A stretch of 7,962 nt of DNA from positions 1-7,962 of the forward strand of contig JAQGKJ010000801.1 of the NCBI GenBank assembly GCA_028290165.1, given 5' to 3'. Of this stretch, positions 1,913 to 7,608 are shown piece by piece. The notes below the pieces were generated by a model. The model was given only the letters and a program-made list of their open reading frames with translations. It did not search any database and was not told the origin of the DNA. Made by a program: the position numbers and the translations under genes. Source of the stretch: Bradyrhizobium sp. Its GTDB lineage: Bacteria; Pseudomonadota; Alphaproteobacteria; Rhizobiales; Xanthobacteraceae. Position 1 is the first letter of the stretch. Each line of letters begins with the position of its first letter.

Positions 1913-2992
1913 TCATCGCCGCCCTTTCCTCTTCTCTTTCTTGCGATTGGTGAAGCGCGCGTTGCCCAATCCGGTGCCGATGGTCAAGACGCCCCAGCGC
2001 TCCACGTCCTGCGTGAACGGCACCTCGGAAAGACCCTGCACCACGCCATCATTGTGCATCAGCACCGCGGTTTCATGGTCGCCGATGAGCGGAATCGCCT
2101 CGAACAGCCGCGCAGGCAGGTTGAACTTGCTGCTCTCCCAATTGCCCGGCAGGTTCTGCGCGCCTTTCTCGATCGTACCGTCCTCGTTGATCACACCGGG
2201 ACACGCGATCCCAATAAAGGGCGCAAGCTTCAGGCCCTCGGCGTCGGCTTCGCTAATCAGGCGCTTCAGCATCTTGACCAGGCGCTTGACGGTGCCTTCC
2301 CGCGTCGGCTCATCATCGGCATGGCGCCAGAGTTCTGACTTCCAGACCGCCGCCTTCGACAAATCGGGCGCTTTTTTCAAGCGGGTCTCGACCACGCCGC
2401 AGCGTATATTGGTGCCGCCGATATCGACCGCGAGGATGCTGTCATGGCCCTCGAAAATCCACGACGGTGCCAGATGCAGGCAGCCGATCAGGCCTGCGTC
2501 ATCGGGATGAAAACGGATCGGCACCATATCGGCCTTGAAGCCTTTGGCCTTGAGAATGATATCGGTGCGCGCGATCGCAAGCTCGCCGGTGCGGCTCTCG
2601 CGAAAGCCGCCACCGACCACGATGCGTTCGGTATCGGCCCAGGCCTTGGTCTTGAGAAATCGCCGCGTTACATAGGCCAGTTCCTGCGCGAATTCCTCGA
2701 TCGCGCCGAGCACCAAAGCGGCGGCGTGGATATCGTCACTCATCAGCGCCTCATCGAGCTTGCTCTTGCCGATGGCCCCAGCGGATTTGTTGCCGAGAGG
2801 ATCCTCGCCGCTTTTCTTTAACGGCTTGCGTAGCGTGTCCAGAATTTTGCGGAATGCGCCCTTGCTGGTCCGGTCGCCGAGAAGGCCGTCCTTGTCCCTT
2901 AGTTCGAGATTGTAGCTGTCTACGTCTACCGACGGCAAGCGGGTGGCGCCGTGCCGGGCGATGCCCGTTGTCGTTAGGATATCTTCAGCCAT
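1913..2992 (-). CDS. ROK-family sugar kinase (glucokinase-like) with circularly permuted motif order
   Basis: A 359-residue cytosolic protein of the ROK/actin-like ATPase fold, expected to phosphorylate glucose or a related sugar. From the N-terminus it carries a leader with HGATRLPSVDVDSYN (residues 14-28), a helical region (75-115), the strand IVVGGG (124-129), DDAGLIG (164-170), then the phosphate-1 motif DIGGTNIRCG (190-199), GIACPG (261-266), NLPGNW (280-285), HNDGVVQGLSE with the likely catalytic Asp315, and the phosphate-2 motif GTGLGNARF (339-347), ending in a Lys/Arg tail. In ordinary ROK proteins the phosphate-1 motif is near the N-terminus and GGG/DDAGLIG near the C-terminus, so the halves are swapped. 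The zinc motif CxCGxxGC is absent. I chose ATG at 2992 because GGAAGGGG precedes it; the frame stays open to an ATG at 3286, but that stretch overlaps a pseudogene in another frame. The sugar specificity is inferred. Confidence 0.9.
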   Translation of the reverse strand: MAEDILTTTGIARHGATRLPSVDVDSYNLELRDKDGLLGDRTSKGAFRKILDTLRKPLKKSGEDPLGNKSAGAIGKSKLDEALMSDDIHAAALVLGAIEEFAQELAYVTRRFLKTKAWADTERIVVGGGFRESRTGELAIARTDIILKAKGFKADMVPIRFHPDDAGLIGCLHLAPSWIFEGHDSILAVDIGGTNIRCGVVETRLKKAPDLSKAAVWKSELWRHADDEPTREGTVKRLVKMLKRLISEADAEGLKLAPFIGIACPGVINEDGTIEKGAQNLPGNWESSKFNLPARLFEAIPLIGDHETAVLMHNDGVVQGLSEVPFTQDVERWGVLTIGTGLGNARFTNRKKEKRKGRR

Positions 2993-2996
2993 TTTG

Positions 2997-3004
2997 CCCC
3001 TTCC
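2997..3004 (-). promoter_or_regulatory. Ribosome-binding site that fixes the ROK kinase start
   Basis: On the minus strand GGAAGGGG lies four bases before the ATG at 2992 (GGAAGGGGCAAAATG). It supports the 359-residue start over the upstream in-frame ATG at 3286. Confidence 0.65.
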
Positions 3005-3116
3005 CGGTCCGCTGCAACACCTCCGAGAGTCGGTCCAAATTAGCATCGCCGAGTTTGAATTTTCGTTGAAGGCTTTATCGGCTACTTGTAAGGAGGCAAG
3101 CCGCTCGACAAGGCAT

Positions 3117-3460
3117 CTAAGTGTCGGAGGCCTTATCCCGCAATATGAATTTGTGGAACCTGCTGATTTTCCCGTCCTTCGTTCTATCCTGGTACAGCAA
3201 TGCCAGGCGCGACTCTTCAAATTATCTGGTGATCCGACTCTCGTCCCTAGGCGGGAAATCAATTTGGAGGATTCCCGCACGCCCATCTTCTTCAGTTTCT
3301 TTCACGGTTGCCGGCACTCCGCCGCGCTCGGTAACCCAGTTCTTGATCGTCCGTGATCTGTGGCGACGTGGCTTTCGCCGGGGCTTTCGCTGTCGCGTTC
3401 GCTTTGGCTTTTGCTGTGGCTTTCCCTATGGCTATTGGCGTATCTTGTGCTCATGGTCAT
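3117..3460 (-). pseudogene. Broken small conserved protein (rhizobial hypothetical, often mislabelled glucan branching enzyme)
   Basis: Three pieces in different frames together resemble a small (~100-130 residue) conserved protein that I recall from Hyphomicrobiales, sometimes mislabelled 1,4-alpha-glucan branching enzyme. An AGGAG site precedes ATGs at 3460 and 3454. The first piece is a Lys/Ala-rich leader (GKATAKANATAKAPAKAT) followed by QITDD. The second is NWVTERGGVPATVKETEEDG then ILQIDFPP. The third is FEESRLALLYQDRTKDGK then ISRFHKFILRD, ending TAG at 3117-3119. Frame changes separate the start codon from the leader, the leader from piece two, and piece two from piece three. Between pieces two and three about ten to fifteen residues of the usual family sequence seem deleted. 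It lies about 125 bases upstream of the ROK kinase on the same strand. Function is unknown even for intact members. Confidence 0.7.
3365..3440. repeat. Low-complexity imperfect GGCTTT/AAAGCC repeats
   Basis: The plus strand repeats degenerate GGCTTT-N(3-6) units (GGCTTTCGCC, GGCTTTCGCT, GGCTTTTGCT, GGCTTTCCCT). On the minus strand these encode alternating Lys and Ala in the leader of the broken small protein. Such slippage-prone DNA is a plausible place for the frameshift that killed it. Confidence 0.6.
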
Positions 3461-3787: not shown

Positions 3788-4396
3788 ATGGCGGATATCG
3801 ACCCCGTTGAGCCGATAATTGACGCGGTGCACCTTTCGATCGACATGCAAATCATCTACGCGCGGGGCGGCGTTTGGGAAACGCCTTCGATGGAACGGGT
3901 GGTGCCATCGATTGTCGAGATCACTGCGCGCCACGCGGCGCGGACCGTGTTCACAAGGTTTATAACACCTTTGCACCCAGAGGACCGGCCAGGGCGATGG
4001 CGGCATTATTTCCGCAAATGGCACCGCGTTACCCGCGCCGAACTTCCATTTTCTCAACTCGAGCTCTTGCCCGCGCTCAGACGATTTGCTCCTCCGGCTG
4101 AGGTCATTGACAAGCCGGCGTATTCAGCATTCGCCGAATCTCCTCTTGCCGCTTTTTTGTCCGAGAGACGCGTCGGCACGCTTGTCGTCACCGGCGCGGA
4201 AACCGACGTCTGCGTTCTCGCGACTGTGCTCGATGCCGTTGATCTCGGCTTTCGCGTCGTTGTAGTGGAGGATGCGCTCTGCAGTTCGTCCGATGCCGGC
4301 CATGAGGCGCTGATGACGCTGTATCGCAGCCGCTTTTCTGTACAAATCGAACTCATCAAGGCGGTGGATTTGCCGGACTTGTGGCGCGAATCCTAA
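3788..4396 (+). CDS. Isochorismatase-family cysteine hydrolase
   Basis: A 202-residue cytosolic hydrolase of the isochorismatase/nicotinamidase superfamily. The expected triad is present: Asp19 in HLSIDMQ, Lys109 in VIDKPAYSAF and the nucleophile Cys142 in GAETDVCVLAT. The cis-peptide region before the Cys and the following DLGFRVVVVEDAL strand and SSSDAGHEALM helix are typical. Length matches the family (about 180-220). Substrates in this family include isochorismate, nicotinamide, carbamoylsarcosine and ureidoacrylate, and the sequence does not decide between them. The start at 3788 has GGAG about ten bases upstream; an overlapping ATG at 3780 is out of frame. The gene is intact and stands alone, with the broken small protein upstream in the other direction and an NRAMP remnant downstream. 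A decayed paralogue lies inverted at 7030-7608. Confidence 0.92.
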   Translation: MADIDPVEPIIDAVHLSIDMQIIYARGGVWETPSMERVVPSIVEITARHAARTVFTRFITPLHPEDRPGRWRHYFRKWHRVTRAELPFSQLELLPALRRFAPPAEVIDKPAYSAFAESPLAAFLSERRVGTLVVTGAETDVCVLATVLDAVDLGFRVVVVEDALCSSSDAGHEALMTLYRSRFSVQIELIKAVDLPDLWRES

Positions 4397-5533: not shown

Positions 5534-5992
5534 CTACATCAGCAGATCGAAAATGCGGAAGCACTTCTGCCAGTGCGCGGTGTACGGACTCTTCAGCCTG
5601 CCATCGATGACCTTGAAGGCACGCGCCAGCACTAGGTTCAGCCCGCCAACCACCTCGGGCAGTCGACCCTCGGTTTCTTCGCCGCAAGCGAGGTCCAGCG
5701 GAGGCTGCGCGGTAAGTTGATCGAGGATCGGCTGTAGTTCGATCTCCTCGTCGATCTGCCTGAATTGGTGGATGCTTTCCTGCAGGCCCTTTGTGATCGG
5801 CAGATCAAATGGCTCGATGATGAGCTGGCCATTGGCCTTTGCAGCCGCTTGGGCTCGCAACAGGAGGTCGTAAATCGTCTGATTGACAAAATCGCTGTAG
5901 CGCTTGAGGTCCTGCTTGTTGACATTGAGCCCGGCCGCGATCCGGAAAACTCGTTCGAACTTCGCCACGCCGATGACATGGCTGGTAGGCAT
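5534..5992 (-). CDS. DUF1931-family protein with two histone folds in one chain
   Basis: A 152-residue protein of the DUF1931 family (PF09123), known from an Aquifex structure to contain two histone folds in one polypeptide, like a fused archaeal histone dimer. Visible hallmarks are VIGVAKFERVFRIAAGL (residues 6-22), KQDLKRYSDFVNQTIYDLLL (26-45), AAKANGQLIIEPFDLPITKG (50-69, the first strand-loop after the long helix), QESIHQFRQIDEEIEL (71-86), PPLDLACGEETEGRLPEVVG (97-116) and HWQKCFRIFDLL at the end. DNA binding is expected from the fold but unproven for most bacterial members. The frame is open to an ATG at 6070; I chose 5992 because the conserved family start follows at once. ATG at 6019 has AGGG eleven bases before it and remains possible, adding nine residues. 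No lesion is seen. It stands alone on its strand. Confidence 0.88.
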   Translation of the reverse strand: MPTSHVIGVAKFERVFRIAAGLNVNKQDLKRYSDFVNQTIYDLLLRAQAAAKANGQLIIEPFDLPITKGLQESIHQFRQIDEEIELQPILDQLTAQPPLDLACGEETEGRLPEVVGGLNLVLARAFKVIDGRLKSPYTAHWQKCFRIFDLLM

Positions 5993-6349
5993 CGTGTTTG
6001 ATTGTACCGCGGCAATCATGGTTTCTGAATCCCTTGGCACCATGTTGCCGCGCATGGGCCGCCGCCCCATTGACGGCTGTCAGATTTGTCCGACATTCTC
6101 GGACGGTCGAAAAATCGGGTCATCGTCACGCACACGCCGACTCCATTGCGGGCGACGAGTACCTTGCCCGAGGTCGCATCCGGCGCCCCCGAATTCGATA
6201 ACCTCTGCGGCGCGGAACAAAGCGCGGGTAAATGGTTGAATCGACATGTGTCCTGTGGCGAGGCGTTCATCGCTTGTAGTATCCGTGTCGCGCGTGCGCG
6301 GCTCGCGAAAGTGTGCCATTCCTGGTTCATTGAACCCTGGGACCGCACA
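5993..6349. other. Unassigned stretch upstream of the histone-fold gene
   Basis: This should hold the promoter of the histone-fold gene on the minus strand. All three frames on both strands are partly open but give no recognisable product. One minus frame from ATG 6248 to TGA 6080 reads MSIQPFTRALFRAAEVIEFG and could be a 55-residue peptide, without supporting evidence. On the plus strand GGAAC at 6214-6218 and GTT at 6235-6237 are 16 bases apart, resembling the alphaproteobacterial EcfG stress-promoter pattern, but nothing intact lies immediately downstream. Confidence 0.35.
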
Positions 6350-7029: not shown

Positions 7030-7608
7030 TATTGGCGGCAGGTCCATTTGATGAGCTCGATCTACTCTGAAAAGCGATTGCGGTAGAGCGCCATCAGCGC
7101 ATCGTGGCCGGCGTAAGACGAACTACATAGGGCCCTTTACTATAACGACCCAAAAGTCGAGATCGATCGCAATCAAGTACAGTTGCGAGTCGCAGACACC
7201 TGTTTCGGAGCCGGTGATTACAACTGTGCTGATATTGTTCTGCGACAGAAAGAAATGACGCAAGTGGGGATTCGGTAAACGCCGAATAAGCCGGCTTATC
7301 GACAACCTTAGCCGGAGGAACAAACCGCGCGAGTGCCGGAATAAGGTCCAGCTCGGACAAAGGAAGTTCCGCACGGGTAGTGCATTTCCATTCACTGCCA
7401 GCGGCCGGGCCTGTCATAGGCGTACATGGGCGTAACAAAGCGGGTGAACATAGTTCGCGGGTTGTACCGCCCGTTATCTCCTAACCGACCGCAGCACGCG
7501 CACCATACATGGTGTAAGCCAAATACCGCCCGCCGCAAAGATGTTGTGCATGTCGGCGCAGATATGCACCGCGTCTGTTATTGCTTCGAGAACCCCAGTA
7601 TCGCTCAT
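7030..7608 (-). pseudogene. Decayed second copy of the isochorismatase-family cysteine hydrolase
   Basis: This is a full-length but broken paralogue of the gene at 3788-4396, in the opposite orientation. From ATG at 7608 it reads MSDTGVLEAITDAVHICADM (catalytic Asp kept), then a stop TAA at 7474-7476. Other frames give TMFTRFVTPMYAYDRPGRW, TRAELPLSELDLIPALARF and VVDKPAYSAFTESPLASF (catalytic Lys kept), STVVITGSETGVC (catalytic Cys kept) with IAIDLDFWVVIVK, and YAGHDALMALYRNRFSE, a stop TAG at 7062-7064, and IELIK. At least four frame changes or stops interrupt it. In the 44-residue block from TRAEL to FLS I count 34 identities with the intact copy, so the two diverged as proteins before, or early in, the decay of this one. 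It cannot yield an active enzyme. Confidence 0.88.

Follow-up and report, generated by a model that had tools for sequence, protein, structure and literature searches.

The stretch of DNA analysed here, 7,962 nucleotides of contig JAQGKJ010000801.1 from a Bradyrhizobium sp. assembly (GCA_028290165.1) and hereafter called the window, carries on its reverse strand a gene for a 359-residue protein with the motifs of a ROK-family sugar kinase, and the features of this gene are collected in Table 1. An earlier reading made from the letters alone (the sequence-only reading) had reported these motifs in the order IVVGGG, DDAGLIG, DIGGTNIR, GIACPG, NLPGNW, HND and GTGLG, and they were indeed located at residues 124, 164, 190, 261, 280, 313 and 339, respectively (protein numbering, initiator Met counted). 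Compared with ROK sugar kinases (PF00480) such as the human GNE ManNAc kinase (2yhy), E. coli NanK (2aa4) and the S. griseus glucokinase (3vgk), the order of the two lobes is swapped. The Met at 2992 was taken as the start, as the equivalent Met is the start in many relatives and a purine-rich stretch lies just 5' of its ATG; an upstream ATG at 3286 is also in frame with the 1913-2992 open reading frame (ORF).

Table 1. Features of the putative permuted ROK gene in the window.
Feature	Position	Strand	Basis or remark
Coding sequence, predicted circularly permuted ROK-fold protein, 359 aa	1913..2992	-	ATG 2990-2992, stop 1913-1915
GGGAAGGGG, likely ribosome-binding site lying 4 nt upstream of the ATG	2997..3005	-	putative, read from the sequence
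N-terminal half, residues 1-183, corresponding to the third strand through the C-terminal helix of the ROK C-lobe	2444..2992	-	
New N-terminal segment, residues 10-30, containing HGATRLPSVDVDSYN, at the ExGH site of canonical ROKs	2903..2965	-	His14 invariant in 44/44
IVVGGG (124-129), GGG motif	2606..2623	-	GGG invariant in 44/44
DDAGLIG (164-170), counterpart of the last conserved ROK motif	2483..2503	-	motif position, family alignment and profile comparison
EGHDSILAVD (181-190), joint from old C terminus to old N terminus	2423..2452	-	full-length rotation optimum at cut 184
C-terminal half, residues 184-350, corresponding to the ROK N-lobe and first C-lobe hairpin	1943..2443	-	
DIGGTNIR (190-197), phosphate-1	2402..2425	-	motif position; pattern check of 111 proteins
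GIACPG (261-266)	2195..2212	-	motif position, family alignment
NLPGNW (280-285)	2138..2155	-	motif position, family alignment
HND (313-315), Asp315 as counterpart of the ROK catalytic base	2048..2056	-	invariant in 44/44; role from the available part of PMC10031466
GTGLG (339-343), phosphate-2, ahead of the new C terminus	1964..1978	-	motif position; pattern check of 111 proteins
Residues 351-359, short basic tail	1916..1942	-	alignment with relatives

Profile comparisons revealed the same exchange of halves. The Pfam ROK profile scored 32 bits (cut-off 22.9) with a match confined to residues 187-350, which correspond to positions 2-142 only of its 294, and the NCBIfam NanK model placed residues 107-175 at its positions 220-286 of 288, with an expectation value (E) of 0.00029 for the whole protein and 0.025 for the N half alone. 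A weak match (E 0.044) was also obtained between residues 221-286 of the E. coli NanK chain 2aa4 and positions 105-175 of the family profile. Hhalign was used to compare the family alignment (n = 44) with 25 canonical ROKs, which were obtained from 31 loci of sampled Pseudomonadota genomes after 2 loci had given no filtered ORF and 4 ORFs with an unclear start motif or an unsuitable length had been removed. The unrotated family profile scored 47.0 over 97 columns, whereas the profile rotated to begin at about residue 183 reached 77.7 with 277 columns aligned (E 3e-10). Taken separately, the halves scored 46.3 (N half, canonical columns 204-303) and 44.2 (C half). In a scan of 30 rotations, scores of 76.9-77.5 were reached at cuts 136-184 and at most 60.9 elsewhere, and 277 columns were covered only at cut 184, which falls within EGHDSILAVD, the joint foreseen in the sequence-only reading. 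As a control, one half-set of the canonical ROKs scored best against the other half-set when unrotated.

Three observations weigh against a permutation. A rotated copy of the single sequence brought no gain in Pfam score; the N half by itself had no Pfam match; and in HMMER searches the canonical ROKs were not scored higher by the rotated profile, the totals being weak in both cases and slightly higher with the native one. The informative part of the HMMER comparison is the order of the domain matches, in which the later part of the canonical protein matched the front of the native profile.

The full chain was predicted as one compact model with a predicted local distance difference test score (pLDDT) of 89.1 and a predicted template modelling score (pTM) of 0.86. 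Residues 184-350 of this model superposed on 3r8e 0-145, 3vgk 2-142 and 6q26 1-145 (with 6q26 up to residue 351), and the N half modelled alone superposed with residues 19-170 on 3r8e 144-294 and, in another chain, 3vgk 141-306, and with residues 19-164 on 6q26 143-278, each of these comparisons covering one half at a time. As these ranges and the rotation scan indicate, the two halves cover the parent ROK fold once, in swapped order. It could be supposed that the N-terminal 185 residues are instead a domain of other origin, joined to a shortened N-half of a ROK protein, as the missing Pfam match, the weak NCBIfam match and the modest structural matches of the N half would allow. This supposition, which the sequence-only reading had itself raised, is very improbable, given that the N half aligned with the canonical columns mentioned above, that its model, folded alone, matched the ROK C-lobe, and that the full model is single and compact. 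In VIA-align, the top 13 entries for the N-half model were exclusively sugar kinases or ROK regulators, aligned through their second halves, and ROK proteins filled the first 11 rows of the Foldseek output. Taken together, the sequence profiles and the predicted structure indicate that the protein is a circular permutation, with the ROK C-terminal half ahead of the N-terminal half as originally proposed.

In the tandem hexokinase 2nzt, 262 residues from chain position 257 to 675 were aligned to the full model, which would correspond to the C-lobe of the first unit followed by the N-lobe of the second; since the overall root-mean-square deviation was 34, these two parts do not superpose jointly. 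The permuted chain was also found to align over almost its full length, in native order, with CoaX, crenactin and MreB, presumably with the two lobes exchanged, and automatic fold assignment might be misled by such native-order matches to other actin-like folds.

Of 117 ORFs recovered from the loci of relatives, 5 contained a stop in the reading and 1 was cut by the contig end; without these 6, there remained 111 proteins, 106 of them distinct. The order of GGG, D[IV]GG[TS]N, HND and GTGLGNA was permuted in 111/111, so that a lesion confined to the window gene is not the cause, and none carried a second ROK C-terminal half after GTGLG, the case that the sequence-only reading had named as a refutation, as all ended within 76 residues of the GTGLGNA start (12 in the shortest). 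The tail after the last strand is long, Lys/Asp-rich and variable in length in many relatives, and nearly absent in the most diverged. Ratios of nonsynonymous to synonymous substitution rates (dN/dS) between the window gene and 8 relatives were 0.11-0.17 for the whole gene and no higher than 0.24 in either half; both halves are under purifying selection. An assembly or sequencing artefact that misjoined the two halves has practically no chance of being correct, being refuted by the uniform order in relatives from many separate records and contradicted by one-place matches in complete plasmids.

The spread of the family was examined at several levels. A protein search gave at least 8000 candidates at E <= 0.001, possibly including canonical ROKs, and among the 120 protein matches listed, the window's own aside, identities were 85-90%. 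A scan of genome contigs confirmed 114 stretches, the best 80 of the 114 belonging to Bradyrhizobium, Rhodopseudomonas, Nitrobacter, Tardiphaga, Afipia and metagenome-assembled genomes, and 206 plasmid records, mainly of Rhizobium (111) and Sinorhizobium (79), contained a match; in 204 of them, 80% or more of the query was covered at a single site. In overlapping genome samples centred on one Bradyrhizobium genome, matches were found in 22/398 genomes of the phylum, 12/289 of the class and 67/119 of the family, and 2/121 sampled genomes from the order to which the most diverged member belongs had one. When 240 alphaproteobacterial genomes were searched with the rotated profile (at most 8 candidates scored per genome), 9 matched, each as two half-matches in permuted order, and within these candidates no canonical-order parent was detected at E <= 1e-5 and no match ran across the canonical junction. 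No relative was found in phage records, nor in viral contigs, where the search covered close relatives only. The swapped order is thus shared by many related bacteria of soil and root nodules, so that what had been put forward as a striking natural case holds as a permutation but proved to be a widespread conserved family and no single curiosity; the distribution and the uniform order fit one ancient event.

Two further observations concern individual genomes. In the Bradyrhizobium genome of one relative (L003), the permuted gene is the sole Pfam ROK match. Two diverged permuted ROK genes, separated by about 98 kb, were found on the plasmid p195_2 of Bradyrhizobium sp. 195, which is typed as conjugative.

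The ROK hallmarks, namely DxGGT (with Thr or Ser last), the Asn-Asp pair, GTG and GGG, are all present in 111/111 proteins. In PsNagK, the available part of PMC10031466 assigns Asp105 as the catalytic base, Asp6 as the metal ligand, and Thr10 and Thr132 to the phosphates, and the counterparts by motif in the window protein are Asp315, Asp190, Thr194 (Ser in many relatives) and Thr340, respectively. For GNE, the portion of PMC2742894 at hand gives N516, D517, E566, H569 and E588 as sugar ligands, describes zinc coordination by H569 and three cysteines, and calls the zinc motif CxCGxxG(C/H)xE characteristic of all ROK members. The Asn-Asp pair is kept as N314 and D315. On the other hand, the zinc motif and the sugar-binding ExGH motif of ROK sugar kinases are absent from the permuted family: the pattern C.C.{1,6}C was found in 0/111 permuted proteins versus 28/29 canonical ROKs, and E.GH in the first 60 residues likewise in 0/111 versus 28/29. 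This canonical set was taken from the best-scoring ROKs and is biased to typical members; DxGGT precedes GTG in 26 of them and follows it in none, one pattern being missing in 3. The N-terminal segment of the permuted proteins is strongly conserved, with His14, Leu19, Gly39-Asp40 and Ala46-Phe47 invariant in 44/44. Since the ExGH motif and zinc finger are missing and a family-specific segment is present instead, binding of the acceptor probably departs from the usual hexose mode.

The same absences would suit a permuted ROK fold that is no longer catalytic and acts as a pseudokinase or regulator in the sensing of sugars or nucleotides, and the ROK family does include repressors, according to the accessible part of PMC12696579. 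We regard this as unlikely, in that the D[IV]GG[TS]N, HND, GTGLGNA and GGG motifs, which a pseudokinase would not need, are retained without exception, and no helix-turn-helix domain of the kind found in ROK repressors (Mlc/NagC type) was matched by Pfam, the N terminus running into the C-lobe. The claim that the catalytic Asp and both phosphate motifs are kept was thus corroborated across the family, and the further claim that the protein is probably active is favoured by these phosphoryl-transfer residues but is tempered by the loss of the zinc and ExGH motifs. The simplest reading is that of an enzyme which would still transfer the gamma-phosphate of ATP, with altered binding of the acceptor.

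Another possibility concerns the parent. Polyphosphate glucokinases and short zinc-less ROKs (NF045942) resemble the permuted family in having no zinc motif (0/8) and give the closest profile match of its C half, which scored 72.4 against 8 such proteins from genomes of the same bacterial family versus 44.2 against the 25 canonical ROKs; moreover, a polyphosphate-glucose phosphotransferase model was matched by 42/44 members at E <= 0.01. These short proteins differ, however, in their canonical order, in their length of about 220-255 residues (n = 8) and in keeping EL[GA]H (8/8), whereas E.GH is found in none of the permuted proteins. Furthermore, the window protein scored 25.5 with the NF045942 model, a tenth of the cut-off of 250, and no match to the short ROKs was obtained with the N half (16.4 versus 46.3 with the canonical ones). 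That the family is a permuted enzyme of the polyphosphate-glucokinase (PPGMK) type, which would phosphorylate glucose or mannose with polyphosphate, therefore appears rather improbable. An origin from a polyphosphate glucokinase is possible, the evidence being mixed, and the parent is unsettled because the C half is nearer to the short zinc-less ROKs and the N half to the canonical ones.

Returning to the permuted kinase that transfers phosphate from ATP, its emergence may be pictured as follows. As the sequence profiles and the predicted structure show, the natural termini, which are close together in ROK kinases, were joined at EGHDSILAVD in an ancestor, and the C-lobe hairpin was cut right behind phosphate-2 (GTG) to give the new termini. 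Judging from the kept residues, the usual two lobes would most likely form, with Asp190, Asp315, Thr340 and GGG meeting at the cleft, where ATP-Mg would be bound and the gamma-phosphate transferred. The cut segment, which is the ExGH and zinc-finger site in canonical ROKs, is replaced here by the family-specific segment holding His14, Leu19-Pro20, Gly39-Asp40 and Ala46-Phe47, and the phosphorylated substrate may be a different or modified sugar, or a polyol. We thus consider it likely that the protein belongs to a conserved, circularly permuted ROK-fold (actin-like, ASKHA) family that keeps phosphotransfer at the cleft and has changed its acceptor, a stress role being guessed for some copies. 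More evenly balanced is the bolder proposal that one ancient permutation cut the acceptor hairpin, removed the zinc finger and ExGH, and founded a kinase family with a new acceptor, which spread through chromosomes and plasmids of Hyphomicrobiales and came partly under general-stress control.

Whole conserved enzyme families that go back to a natural circular permutation are, to our knowledge, uncommon. Circular permutations inside groups of kinase folds, as well as swaps of segments, have been described as events that give the same fold with another connectivity (PMC1079889; PMC2213659), but the cases in the available parts of these papers concern fold groups in general and ADP-glucokinase versus ketogluconate kinase, not a ROK or actin-like sugar kinase. 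A full-text literature search on permutation, which most subscription papers lay outside, likewise returned no permuted ROK or actin-like sugar kinase, although this is not proof that none has been described. In databases, the permuted proteins are annotated as 'ROK family protein' (in most of the listed plasmid records, where annotated) or 'hypothetical protein'; the former label hides the swap and implies a substrate that is unsupported given the missing residues. As the cut lies in the sugar- and zinc-binding region of ordinary ROKs, it is testable whether the permutation changes acceptor specificity with the phosphate-transfer machinery unchanged.

A fixed neighbour of the permuted ROK gene was considered and rejected, as the neighbours differ by lineage. 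Bradyrhizobium-type chromosomal loci show an rplU-rpmA-GNAT-EamA-obg-proB-proA neighbourhood, which says little about function, and a NAGGN-system peptidase adjoins the gene in S. meliloti and an aldolase in Phyllobacterium. A divergent otsB (trehalose-phosphatase) neighbour was found in 4/8 annotated regions, from Rhizobium, Shinella and 'Roseateles', and otsB was detected by tblastn somewhere in two further loci; two regions of Bradyrhizobium sp. 195 had neither otsB nor the rplU-type neighbourhood. The Roseateles sp. XES5 plasmid (UNVERIFIED_ORG) is the only plasmid match filed outside Alphaproteobacteria, and its Shinella-like otsB arrangement suggests that the organism name is probably wrong.

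The motif GGAAC-N15-18-CGTT, which we take to be the EcfG (general stress) promoter, was present within 400 bases upstream of 9/30 copies without rplU in the locus versus 0/81 with rplU, and the looser form ending in [CT]GTT in 11/30 copies without rplU, against a background of 52/6452 windows. The copies with the motif are mutually related, so the binomial value overstates this evidence. For copies with an otsB neighbour or the promoter motif, the leading guess is involvement in sugar metabolism under osmotic or general stress. This guess does not extend to the window copy, upstream of which the motif was absent and around which otsB was not recognised within the 7,962 nt. Likewise, rplU was not detected next to the window copy, and tblastn of its neighbours (dehydrogenase, isochorismatase and DUF1931) against the loci of relatives yielded no match at E 1e-10, which suggests that the window gene is a relocated or second copy.

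As for these neighbours, an alcohol dehydrogenase start (ADH_N, E 9.2e-26) at 3-536 on the reverse strand runs off the window, and an intact isochorismatase-type hydrolase (E 3.1e-34) lies at 3788-4396 on the forward strand. An apparent broken second isochorismatase-type copy at 7094-7438 on the reverse strand reached a Pfam E of 0.099 only and is similar by eye. The reverse-strand ORF at 5534-6070 encodes a clear DUF1931 protein (PF09123, E 3.6e-54), a family that we presume to be a bacterial histone-fold one.
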